From: Lachnospiraceae bacterium
GTDB taxonomy: Bacteria > Bacillota > Clostridia > Lachnospirales > Lachnospiraceae
Length of the DNA: 11,057 nt
Direction of reading: 5' to 3'
Assembly (NCBI GenBank): GCA_017437205.1
Contig: JAFSBP010000022.1
Coordinates: 1-11,057, forward strand
Positions 4,122 through 7,468 of the stretch are shown in pieces (position 1 is the stretch's first letter; each line of letters starts with the position of its first letter). A model generated the notes under the pieces. It saw nothing but the letters and a program-made list of their open reading frames with translations. It was not told the origin of the DNA and searched no databases. The position numbers were made by a program, and so were the translations under genes.

Positions 4122-5060
4122 ATGAAGAGAGGAAGATGGATAGCAATTCTTTTGGTCGTTATGGCCATGCTTATGCTGGCCGGATGCAATGATGATTCTC
4201 CCGAATTGACGGAAAATGCTTACGAGGTATATTATCTGGGAAATGAGGCATATTCGCTCACCACGGAAAGGCGTGAGATTCTCGGAGAGGATGTTAAGGA
4301 GCGGGCGTTTAAATTGCTGGAGGCCATGAAGCAGCCTGAAAAGGTACAAAATTCATCACTGTTTGCTAAAACAGAACTGGTAAATAGAGTTACCGTGGAA
4401 CAGGGAAACCTGCTTAATGTTTATATGAACGAACAGTACAGTCAGCTCAGTGTGGCGAACGAGGTTTTGTTGCGGGCCGGAATTGTGAAAACGCTGGTTC
4501 AGCTTGAGGGTGTGCAGTATGTGGCGATCTATGTGAACGAGCAGCCGCTCATTGATGTGACAGGAAAGACGGTTGGCATCATGTCAGCGGAATCGTTTCT
4601 TGATTCCCGTGGCGAAAATCTTAGTAATTACGAGCAGGTGGTACTGACGGTTTATTTCGGAAATGCGGCGGGAACCGGTCTGACGGAAACCAGTCGGGAG
4701 ACGACGATCAGCGGAACCTTTTCTAAGGAACGTCAGGTGGTGAATGCGTTGCTTGCAGGACCGGAATCGTCAGACATGCTTGCAACGATGCCACAGGGAA
4801 CCAATTTGCTCAGTGTTTCTGTGAAAAATAATATTTGTTACGTAAATTTCAGCGGTGGCTTTTTGACCGGTGATTTGGCAGTGAGTCCCTATGTGACCAT
4901 CTATTCGCTGGTGAACTCGCTGACTGCATTGTCAAATATCAGCAAGGTTCAGATCATGGTGGAAGGCGACTCGTCAAAGAAGTTTTGTGAGACGATCCCT
5001 TTGGATGTACCCTTTGAGCGAAATCTGGACTATGTGATGAGTGGAGGAAAAGAAAAATAA
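4122..5060 (+). CDS. GerMN-domain lipoprotein
   Basis: Predicted secreted lipoprotein of 312 residues attached to the outer face of the membrane. The signal ends in MLAGC (residues 18-22), giving lipidated Cys22. The C-terminal half, from about residue 175 (VVLTVYFGN) to 305, is a clear GerMN domain: the phrases VVNALLAGPESS, NNICYVNFSGGF and TIYSLVNSLT are typical. Residues about 33-165 look like a diverged first copy (VYYLGNEAY ... LNVYMNEQYSQ ... GIVKTLVQLEGVQYVAIYVN), matching the two-domain layout of B. subtilis GerM, a spore cortex and germination protein. GGAGG (4112-4116) overlaps the kinase stop and is 5 bases from ATG 4122, so translation is probably coupled. Lying directly after a sensor kinase, it may serve as an extracellular accessory of that sensor or act at the cell wall; both are inference. 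Its TAA stop overlaps the proposed comEC start. Confidence 0.85.
   Translation: MKRGRWIAILLVVMAMLMLAGCNDDSPELTENAYEVYYLGNEAYSLTTERREILGEDVKERAFKLLEAMKQPEKVQNSSLFAKTELVNRVTVEQGNLLNVYMNEQYSQLSVANEVLLRAGIVKTLVQLEGVQYVAIYVNEQPLIDVTGKTVGIMSAESFLDSRGENLSNYEQVVLTVYFGNAAGTGLTETSRETTISGTFSKERQVVNALLAGPESSDMLATMPQGTNLLSVSVKNNICYVNFSGGFLTGDLAVSPYVTIYSLVNSLTALSNISKVQIMVEGDSSKKFCETIPLDVPFERNLDYVMSGGKEK
5043..5059 (+). promoter_or_regulatory. comEC ribosome binding site pointing at an ATA codon
   Basis: GGAGG (5043-5047) is followed after 9 bases by ATA (5057-5059). Between the in-frame TGA at 5015-5017 and GTG 5105 there is no ATG, GTG or TTG in the comEC frame. GTG 5105 has only GGAGAG directly abutting it, a spacing ribosomes rarely use, and would remove conserved N-terminal residues. 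The site therefore decides the start in favour of ATA, or shows that a normal start was lost. Confidence 0.6.
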
Positions 5061-7468
5061 AGAGACCGATTTGCTGGCTTGCGGGAGCGTTTGTACTTGG
5101 AGAGGTGCTGTGCCTGAGCCAATGGTCATTGAAGGCTGTGTTGCCCGCAGTGGCGGCAGTTTTCCTTGTGTTACATAAAATGAGAAAACATGGGCAGTAT
5201 TGGCTGGGGCTGATACTGCTCTTCTTTGTCCTGTGGGGGTATATCTGTTGCGGTCAAGCTGTCCAAAATGAAAAGACCGCTCTCTGGCTGGTGGAGCAGT
5301 TGGAGAGTGTTCCGTCGGAGCGGCGACAGGCAGAGGCTGTTGGAGTAGTGATTTCCGTGGGAGCGATGGAAAACTCTTCCAAATATGTGCTGAAAGAGGT
5401 GAGGATGCAGACTGCAGTGGGAGAGGTAGAGCTTTCGAAACTGATTATCTACACTGCTGATGACACTGAAATTAGAGAAGGTGATCGGATATCAGTAATT
5501 GGACAGATCAGTAGCTTTGATACTGCGACAAATCCGGGACAGTTTGATTTCCGGGCTTACCAGTCGTCGATGGGGATGTATTTGCAGATGTATGGGCAGC
5601 ACATTGTAGTGGATATGAACTCGACAGAACCGTTTTTGGGGATGCTGGGGCAGGTTCGCCGCTATGTGAGAGGAATTTTTATGGCAGTGTCCCCCGATAC
5701 CGGTGGGACAATGCTGGCAATGGTACTTGGGGATAAAAGTGAGTTGCCGGATGAGCGGCAACAGCTCTATCTGGACAGTGGTATCGGCCACATCCTTACT
5801 TTAAGCGGCCTGCATTTGTCTTTGCTCGGGGTTGGCCTTTACGGGGGATTGAGAAAGAAAATGACGGTCTCTAAATGGCCGGCAGCGATATTGGTTAGTA
5901 CTCTTTTGTTTATCTATCTGCGCTTGATCGGCAGCGGGATATCCGCAACGAGGGCGGCAATCGCTATCGGCTGCAGTCTGATTGCCGGAGGAGTAGGAAA
6001 AACATACGATTCGCCTTCTGCAGCGGCACTGGGGATGGTGATCATTCTTAGAGAATACCCTTTGCAGATTACGCGTCCGTCGTTTTGGCTGTCATTTGGG
6101 GCAGTGCTATCGCTGGGTTTGATATTGCCTGAACTGGTGCGATGGTTAAAACTGAGTCGAAAGTGGGCGAAGACCCTGCTCAGTGTTCTTGTGGTGTGGA
6201 TGGTTCTCATGCCTGTGACAGCTATCAATCAGTATGTGATCCAGCCCTACAGTATTCTGCTGAATTTTGTTGTAGTGCCGTTGATGGGGCCAGTGTTGAT
6301 TGGATGTATTCTTGTACTTGCAGCTGGCAGTATTTCACTGCCTGTAGGTTCGGTGGTTTCTGTGCCGGTCAGATGTGCGTTCTTATTTGTCGACGAGTTG
6401 TGCCGACTGGCAGGGAAATTTCCGGGGAATCAGATTGTCGTGGGATGTCCCTCGTTTGGACAGCTTTTGGTCTATGCTGGAGTATTGACTGTATTTTTAT
6501 TTGTGCTGCATAGACAGAACCTGCGGGAATGGGAAAAGCAGGAGACGGGAGGTTATGAGGAAACTGAAGCGGAAGGGGAAGAAAAGCCGGTCAGAGCCGG
6601 TAAGGCAAAGCGCTGGTGTAGTCTCTTTGCGACGTGTGGGTTACTGGCAGTGATTCTTCTGTTTGGCATCGGGCGCAACCGTTTGGAGATTGTGTTTCTG
6701 GATGTCGGCCAGGGTGACGGTATATTTCTTCGGATGCCAAATGGTGCGACAATGATGGTGGACGGAGGAAGTTCGTCTGAGACTGCAATCTATGAAGAGA
6801 CGATTCATCCGAGCCTAAAGTGGGCGGGAGTGCGAAAGCTGGACTATCTGGTGATGACACATTTGGATAGCGATCATATGAATGGTCTGGTGGATTTATT
6901 GGAGTCCGGCTTTCCGGTCGGATGCCTTTTGGTCTCTGAAGTGACAATGGATGAAAAAGAAGTGGAGGAAATAAAAAAGATTGCAACGCAAAATGGCACA
7001 AGAGTGGTGAGGATAGGAATGAATGATGGAATCAAATTGGGGAAAGTGGAGATGAAATGCATTTCTCCGGAAACGATGATATCTCCACAGACGGAAAATG
7101 AGTGCTCAGTGGTACTTGAATTGACTTACCGAAACTTCTCCTGCCTGCTCACCGGAGATGTGGAAGGGAAAGGGGAGCGGACAGTGGAGGATTATGTGAG
7201 TAAACGACCTCCATATACGCTTTTGAAGGTGGCACATCACGGGTCGAAATATTCTACCTCTGAGACATTTTTGGCGGCAGTGCGGCCTGTTGCGGCAGTG
7301 ATTTCCTGCGGAAAGAAGAATTCTTACGGTCATCCACATGAAGAACTGCTTGATCGGCTGGCGGCGGTGGAGAGTGAGATATACTGTACGGCAGAGTGCG
7401 GCGCGGTGATGGTGAATACGGATGGCATCCGTTGGGAGATTAAGGGGTATGTATCCCAAAATCCGTAA
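5057..7468 (+). CDS. comEC: ComEC/Rec2 DNA-uptake channel, with apparent ATA start
   Basis: Polytopic membrane protein that carries single-stranded DNA across the membrane in transformation; 803 residues from ATA 5057. The first residues, KRPICWLAGAFVLGE, look like a normal ComEC N-terminus and lie upstream of the first standard start (GTG 5105), which would give 787 residues. Order: N-terminal membrane helices and DUF4131-like soluble segment (about 1-215), the Competence domain of many helices with the signature LTLSGLHLSLLG near 245-256 (to about 480), a charged cytoplasmic or external stretch rich in Glu (about 490-515), another helix, then a metallo-beta-lactamase-like domain: FLDVGQGDG (547-555), HLDSDH (602-607), LLTGDVEG, HHGSK (727-731) and GHPHEE (His759). 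The metal-binding-like HxDxDH motif is intact, so a nuclease role, as proposed for this domain, is possible. The reading frame has no internal stop. No comEB is present nearby. See the separate ribosome binding site entry for the start. Confidence 0.9.
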   Translation: MKRPICWLAGAFVLGEVLCLSQWSLKAVLPAVAAVFLVLHKMRKHGQYWLGLILLFFVLWGYICCGQAVQNEKTALWLVEQLESVPSERRQAEAVGVVISVGAMENSSKYVLKEVRMQTAVGEVELSKLIIYTADDTEIREGDRISVIGQISSFDTATNPGQFDFRAYQSSMGMYLQMYGQHIVVDMNSTEPFLGMLGQVRRYVRGIFMAVSPDTGGTMLAMVLGDKSELPDERQQLYLDSGIGHILTLSGLHLSLLGVGLYGGLRKKMTVSKWPAAILVSTLLFIYLRLIGSGISATRAAIAIGCSLIAGGVGKTYDSPSAAALGMVIILREYPLQITRPSFWLSFGAVLSLGLILPELVRWLKLSRKWAKTLLSVLVVWMVLMPVTAINQYVIQPYSILLNFVVVPLMGPVLIGCILVLAAGSISLPVGSVVSVPVRCAFLFVDELCRLAGKFPGNQIVVGCPSFGQLLVYAGVLTVFLFVLHRQNLREWEKQETGGYEETEAEGEEKPVRAGKAKRWCSLFATCGLLAVILLFGIGRNRLEIVFLDVGQGDGIFLRMPNGATMMVDGGSSSETAIYEETIHPSLKWAGVRKLDYLVMTHLDSDHMNGLVDLLESGFPVGCLLVSEVTMDEKEVEEIKKIATQNGTRVVRIGMNDGIKLGKVEMKCISPETMISPQTENECSVVLELTYRNFSCLLTGDVEGKGERTVEDYVSKRPPYTLLKVAHHGSKYSTSETFLAAVRPVAAVISCGKKNSYGHPHEELLDRLAAVESEIYCTAECGAVMVNTDGIRWEIKGYVSQNP

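Follow-up and report, generated by a model that had tools for sequence, protein, structure and literature searches.

A probable AUA start codon of comEC, followed by an element complementary to a TadE-like pilus gene, in Lachnospiraceae

The gerM-comEC junction

The stretch of DNA considered here (the window) comprises 11,057 nucleotides (nt) of contig JAFSBP010000022.1 from the Lachnospiraceae bacterium assembly GCA_017437205.1, and our subject is the beginning of comEC, the gene of a DNA channel, which probably starts at the near-cognate codon AUA and whose mRNA would pair in trans, through a stretch shortly behind that codon, with that of a TadE-like pilus gene. The comEC gene (5057..7468, on the plus strand, as are all window features given below) is an intact frame whose product carries the DUF4131, Competence and metallo-beta-lactamase domains (PF13567, PF03772, PF00753) expected of ComEC/Rec2 proteins, and the whole protein scores 205.7 bits against TIGR00361, above the cut-off of 190.05. 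Upstream lies gerM (4122..5060), encoding a Germane-domain protein (PF10646, E 1e-34), whose TAA stop (5058-5060) shares two bases with the proposed comEC start; the junction therefore reads ATAA rather than ATGA and, as the initial annotation had pointed out, is a single base away from the ATGA overlap.

The comEC frame is bounded upstream by an in-frame TGA (5015..5017), after which the codons read GCG AAA TCT GGA CTA TGT GAT GAG TGG AGG AAA AGA AAA ATA AAG AGA CCG. Codon reading confirmed the earlier observation that no in-frame ATG, GTG or TTG occurs from this TGA until the GTG at 5105..5107. The proposed start, ATA at 5057..5059, is preceded by a GGAGG (5043..5047; predicted Shine-Dalgarno duplex -9.3 kcal/mol) that ends 9 nt ahead of it, a placement that had likewise been described correctly.

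Two other species of the genus (G001 and G002), with 71-73% DNA identity to the window over about positions 4704-5230, have both the ATA and the GGAGG at identical positions, so that alignment of these orthologs returned ATA and not the ATG that the initial annotation had considered. In both, the comEC frame contains a TAG three codons ahead of ATA (TAG AAC AAA ATA in one and TAG AAC CAA ATA in the other), which leaves no room for a hidden canonical start upstream.

comEC starts across the family

A comEC match was found in at least 116 of 120 family genomes, and the 5' ends of 100 were read; with the addition of G000 (the window's own genome), G001, G002 and 80 named loci (the best 80 of at least 574), and after removal of 8 duplicates, this gave 175 rows, 28 of which were dropped because the locus was incomplete or the Arg-Pro (R-P) motif was not located, leaving 147 loci. 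Most of the 80 named relatives are labelled as Lachnospiraceae or as genera that we take to be members of that family, and some bear only Clostridiales- or Clostridiaceae-type labels.

An ATG, GTG or TTG lies within 10 codons before the P of R-P in 116 of the 147 loci and only farther upstream in 7; the remaining 24 have none. The third codon before P (position -3) in these 24 start-less loci is ATA in 11, ATT in 7, ATC in 1, GTT in 2, and GTA, AGT and AGC in one each, which means that ATH (ATA, ATT or ATC) stands there in 19. In 48 canonical loci this very position is the start codon (ATG 32, TTG 13, GTG 3), which makes initiator the best reading of the isoleucine codon. Among individual cases, the comEC frame of G009 reads ATT ATT AAA AGA CCT directly after a stop, and in G075 four codons separate the stop from an ATC. 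The label 'likely AUH', given to G072, G071, G021, G088, G073 and L192, reflects our own judgement.

The five start-less loci without ATH at -3 are L211, L062 (G031), L091 (G107), L141 (G127) and L223, where GTT, CTG or ATC are candidates, with CTG at -5 in G127, CTG at -4 in G031 and ATC at -4 in L223. TTG is common among the canonical comEC starts (29 of 104 assigned), a possible sign of selection for weak initiation in general.

For pairing with the 16S tail, the predicted energy is -9.4 kcal/mol before ATH (n=19), at a spacing of 4-8 nt, -7.0 kcal/mol before ATG (n=67) and -8.7 kcal/mol before TTG (n=29), the Shine-Dalgarno sequence before ATH being stronger than that before ATG (p=4e-4). 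Control genes were sought in 82 sequences and read under a similar rule; loci lacking a canonical start before the N-terminal motif numbered 0 of 35 for gerM, 0 of 18 for holA and 0 of 2 for comEA. In the positive control infC, for which 30 loci (L250-L279) were read out of 117 genomes and the motif was not found in 3, 26 loci carry ATT and one ATA, with a GGAGG-like sequence in a like position.

On a ComEC tree of 86 rows, built by a quick method and weak in 32 of its 83 inner branches, the strict AUH state changes at least nine times on supported branches, and sister pairs differ as ATA/ATT (L210/L206), ATA/ATC (G034/G071) and ATC/ATT (G088/G073), where G071, G088 and G073 are 'likely' assignments only. 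The AUH start would thus have been either kept or regained repeatedly, alternatives between which this tree cannot choose.

Several observations weigh against reading the isoleucine codon as an initiator, or at least reduce the force of the comparison. An internal ATH also stands at -3 in 16 of the 56 loci whose canonical start lies farther up the frame, so part of the isoleucine signal may reflect an amino-acid preference, and in Shine-Dalgarno strength ATH and TTG starts do not differ (p=0.71). The infC control is, moreover, less strict, with a canonical codon within 12 codons upstream in 7 of 27 loci and an ATG four codons downstream in many. Separately, some family genomes have an infC without ATG four codons after its ATT or ATA.

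Taken by the marks of the near-cognate class, the start-less comEC loci offer no usable upstream ATG, GTG or TTG, and their proposed start codon is conserved, aligned with canonical starts and preceded by a strong Shine-Dalgarno sequence. By this comparison comEC is a recurrent near-cognate-start gene across the family, and its AUA start has good support and belongs to an ordinary kind, that of infC. The suggestion in the initial annotation that AUA serves as a rare, weak start gains from the three species and from the AUH starts of many genera, a support drawn from comparison.

Alternative explanations for the start

A true start at GTG 5105, or at another downstream canonical codon, appears very improbable. 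The three species of the genus share the GTG, but outside the genus it is not conserved (GTA in G009 and G084, ACT in G034) and relatives lack any canonical codon there; in G009, for example, the first one comes 30 codons after the isoleucine codon. A start at GTG would also cost the protein its R-P motif and the greater part of its first hydrophobic stretch, and the codon has no spaced Shine-Dalgarno sequence, GGAGAG abutting it directly. R3 and P4 are invariant among 21 aligned ComEC proteins (rows picked partly by the R-P motif).

Equally improbable is that gerM is extended into ComEC by frameshifting or read-through. The window's gerM frame ends in AAA before TAA, from where slipping by -1 would lead into the comEC frame, but the corresponding codons in G001 are ACC AAA, where a slip would mispair. 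Measured against comEC, the stop of the upstream gene falls in frame 0, 1 or 2 depending on the genome, and neither a constant frame relation nor a slippery site was found across relatives.

That a recent point mutation crippled comEC and acts as a natural off-switch for competence, as the initial annotation had proposed, is scarcely credible: AUA and AUU did give about 10% of AUG output in Staphylococcus aureus reporters, and up to 30% in one medium, in the available part of that report (PMC13009471), but here the ATA is conserved between species in front of an intact frame, all three ComEC domains occur in 21 of 21 aligned proteins, and a comEA-like gene is present in the window. Least plausible of all is a sequencing or assembly error at 5059 concealing a true ATG; although the assembly of G000, in which the window is contig C221, is fragmented (2.09 Mb, 472 contigs, 70% complete), the same ATA in the two other species excludes error as it excludes recent damage, AUA, AUU or AUC recur in many other genera, and a 6.9 Mb one-contig genome (G071) probably starts comEC at ATC.

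A conserved element behind the start

In the aligned comEC junctions, DNA identity beyond what the protein needs was first seen downstream of the start. The core of this element, GTACTTGGAGAG (5093..5104), is conserved at synonymous sites over codons 13-16, and Leu-Gly-Glu (LGE, codons 14-16) is written CTT GGA GAG in 30 of the 31 comEC loci with LGE there, as against 3 of 102 other LGE tripeptides in the examined loci (Fisher p=3e-25). It accompanies ATG, TTG and ATH starts alike. The initial annotation had read the start region correctly and had missed a conserved element, at 5089-5105, that covaries with a pilus gene.

The 12-mer GTACTTGGAGAG occurs in 12 of 37 genomes, with 1-4 copies in each and 21 in total, compared with 9 for the reversed control; comEC accounts for 7 of the 21 and the other 14 lie elsewhere. 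Rfam returned no RNA family for the five non-comEC 12-mer loci searched or for the window, and the fold of the comEC leader is not unusual (z +1.27).

Four of the 14 copies outside comEC are the reverse complement, each in the 5' part of one TadE-like pseudopilin gene in four genomes, including the window's own partner copy at G000:C216:5413-5424 (L288:1501-1512). The identity of TadE was established by Pfam in three of these discovery genomes (G000, G014, G018 and G021) and by alignment in the fourth; neighbouring genes include a DUF5702 gene upstream in L288 and a prepilin-peptidase gene downstream in L283, and a search with the four discovery sequences found a TadE-like gene in 114 of 120 family genomes. 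Many TadE-profile matches contain one stop (L305-L308, L312, L313 and others). In the window, the stretch complementary to the TadE-like gene extends over 5083..5105, with 17 nt ungapped at 5089-5105 when G.U is allowed; an alternative form, read by eye from the sequences, combines GGGAGC and TTGTACTTGGAGAG with a 2-nt bulge.

The partner motif CTCTCCA[AG]G[TC] lies in the 5' part of tadE in 26 of the 32 genomes whose comEC has CTTGGAGAG (31 genomes plus G075), four of the 26 being the discovery set, and in only 1 of 27 genomes without the comEC element (G062, in the fetched TadE stretch), for all of which both the TadE stretch and comEC were read. Outside both counts stand G078 (comEC with CTGGGAGAG, no partner), G121 (partner present, comEC cut off) and G111 and G011 (comEC not read). 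Among genomes fetched after the rule had been set, the partner was found in 9 of 10 and then in 8 of 9 named genomes, and in the reverse direction the comEC element of G075 was correctly predicted from the tadE side. Lachnoanaerobaculum orale DSM 24553 (L224), whose comEC begins with ATG, has both the element and its partner. The G136 copy of the motif is placed 241 nt upstream of the transmembrane stretch and out of its frame.

Further complementary or related sequences were noted. In G009, whose comEC has the element, a complementary 12-mer lies near the 5' end of a DUF6382 gene (L294, G009:C63:27111-27122). The TadE-like stretch of G085 and G032 contains CTCTCCGGGCA, and CTCTCC[AG]GGCA[TG] occurs in the TadE-like loci L312 (G085), L324 (G062) and L329 (G032), in genomes whose comEC is without LGE; these may represent a different or more ancient partner. 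A model of pairing in cis, with the tadE motif masking the Shine-Dalgarno sequence of its own gene, was rejected as not general, pairing above 0.5 being predicted in 2 of 18 genomes with an upstream GGAGG (G014 and L210).

Covariation of comEC and tadE

The two sides vary together. Where comEC has ATA in place of GTA, tadE has TAT in place of TAC (G072 and L176), and where comEC has GTG, TTG or CTG, tadE has GCA in place of GTA in 5 of 7 cases and G.U results in the other 2. At position -1 of the pairing, A faces U in 19 pairs, G faces C in 5 and G.U occurs in 2 (Fisher p=5e-4 for the first 24 pairs).

Pairing runs, with G.U allowed, span 13-25 nt and average 18.0 nt in native against 13.6 nt in swapped combinations (24 pairs), and the predicted duplex energy over 26 pairs is -44.4 kcal/mol for native and -34.0 kcal/mol for swapped combinations (permutation p=2e-5). 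No native excess appears in 26 genomes that lack the motif pair (-51.0 versus -50.7 with longer segments, p=0.34). The G000 duplex reaches -54.0, compared with a mean of -26.9 (sd 5.2, minimum -48.0) over 1676 window segments taken from both strands, the element's own antisense omitted. Within the central 12 nt of 24 pairs, 15 differences comprise 12 that are G.U-compatible, 3 end transversions and 0 incompatible transitions, nine of the twelve compatible ones falling at one position fixed by the comEC Leu codon. These observations of extended complementarity between two mRNAs, with covariation of both sides, are those expected of trans mRNA-mRNA pairing.

The chief competitor of RNA pairing, unlikely but clearly the most serious of the rival explanations, is a DNA site for a regulator or for recombination that faces one way in comEC and the other way in the TadE-like gene. 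At the DNA level reverse complementarity is symmetric, and a change in regulator specificity could shift two loci together; however, the partner stretches match in a genome-specific manner over the full length of the runs, the 12-mer is confined to a few copies in the genomes that have it, and over 21 nt the G.U-compatible transitions outnumber the incompatible ones by 33 to 13 (p=0.005, the differences not being independent).

A dedicated comEC-tadE duplex also has to contend with a number of adverse observations. No partner motif was found in G095 or L227, whose comEC has the variant GCGCTTGGAGAG (for L227 the search was by pattern only), G001, G073 and G088 yielded neither a TadE-like gene nor a TadE-linked motif, G009 gives a weak TadE hit without the motif, and G062 presents a partner-like motif with no comEC element. 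The motif keeps one TadE reading frame in 16 of 17 genomes, and a coding constraint (L-Q-V/A) may therefore contribute; the U.G excess at +1 arises because the comEC Leu codon forces the base, and 56 transversions also fall within the 21 nt. Near relatives occur among the swapped pairs and the pairs are linked by phylogeny, cis predictions show the comEC element partly paired, and the association of the element with AUH starts vanishes once the tree is considered.

With both sides weighed, we moderately favour a dedicated trans duplex between comEC and tadE, maintained by compensatory change across genera of one Lachnospiraceae branch, through which channel and Tad pilus would be kept in step. 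The complementarity is a more surprising result than the AUA start, and the case for pairing draws on covariation.

Genomic context

The gene order in the window is TraB-like, comEA-like, response regulator, histidine kinase, gerM, comEC, holA, mgtE and secA. The comEA-like gene carries SLBB and HHH domains; the response regulator and secA are presumed from their translations. An upstream open reading frame of at least 100 codons ends near comEC in 26 of 26 family loci, with a gerM-like RNLD-type C-terminus in 18. Of the control genes, gerM was found in 35, holA in 18 and comEA in 2 of the sequences searched.

Proposed mechanism and relation to known systems

The AUA start and the trans pairing are held together, with good confidence, as a joint reading of the sequence comparisons. 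Initiation would occur at AUA 5057, less likely at another non-canonical codon within a few codons, with the initiator tRNA reading methionine; the strong Shine-Dalgarno sequence would assist, as perhaps would ribosomes finishing gerM. Such a start would keep the ComEC channel scarce and might render it sensitive to the start-codon proofreading of initiation factor 3 (IF3), as with infC. The comEC stretch from about +33 to +49 would then pair with the 5' part of the TadE-like mRNA and tie channel output to the Tad transcript. Since the element core begins at +37, beyond the initiating ribosome, any effect of the duplex, whichever its direction, would most likely be exerted through mRNA stability or processing rather than through blocked initiation.

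The nearest precedent for the start is infC, whose AUU or AUA serves IF3 autoregulation and which shares with comEC a near-cognate AUN codon and a strong, spaced Shine-Dalgarno sequence in the same family (27 of 30 loci). The comEC start differs in drifting among AUA, AUU and AUC and in being often ATG or TTG in relatives, and, since comEC does not encode IF3, autoregulation of this kind does not apply. Further precedents are taken from the available portions of the papers cited. In S. aureus, the AUA starts of ccpN and citZ and the AUU start of cvfC1 were identified by initiation profiling and reporters, those of ccpN and cvfC1 being conserved (PMC13009471); like comEC these genes combine a near-cognate start with an extended Shine-Dalgarno sequence, and their output is low, but they are other genes with experimentally shown starts, whereas the comEC start is predicted here from sequence. 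The GTC start of Streptomyces sigR, which is repressed by IF3, is likewise a non-canonical start acting as a control point outside infC, although it concerns a different codon and a stress sigma factor and its IF3 effect has been shown (PMC5472188). In Listeria monocytogenes, comEC itself is among 39 genes with variable start codons between lineages, most of the variation across the 39 remaining within canonical codons (PMC13068326).

As regards pairing in trans, the Listeria mRNAs of hly and prsA2, two coding transcripts of linked function, pair with an effect on stability according to a review (PMC8079631); there a 3' untranslated region (UTR) meets a 5' UTR, whereas comEC and tadE would pair through two early coding regions that are complementary across genera. 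Coordination of pilus and channel would be sensible in view of Liberibacter crescens, where Tad pilus and ComEC share a route of DNA uptake; this species belongs to a distant phylum, and no RNA link is described for it in the available part of the report (PMC8513845). In the open-licence literature, judged from listings, no report of an AUN comEC start or of comEC-tadE pairing was found, and as far as these searches show the AUA start is new for comEC.

Significance

Annotation limited to ATG, GTG and TTG would set the start of comEC wrongly in 24 of the 147 loci read here from a major gut family, and a recurrent AUN start outside infC offers a natural gene series for measuring the cost and use of weak initiation. 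If the pairing is real, it would be, to our knowledge, the first comparative evidence of a coding-region mRNA duplex linking a pilus with a DNA channel. DNA uptake in these gut bacteria, whose competence has hardly been studied, would in that case depend on the Tad system as its pilus, and the channel, whose output an AUN start would often limit as well, would be expressed in step with that pilus.

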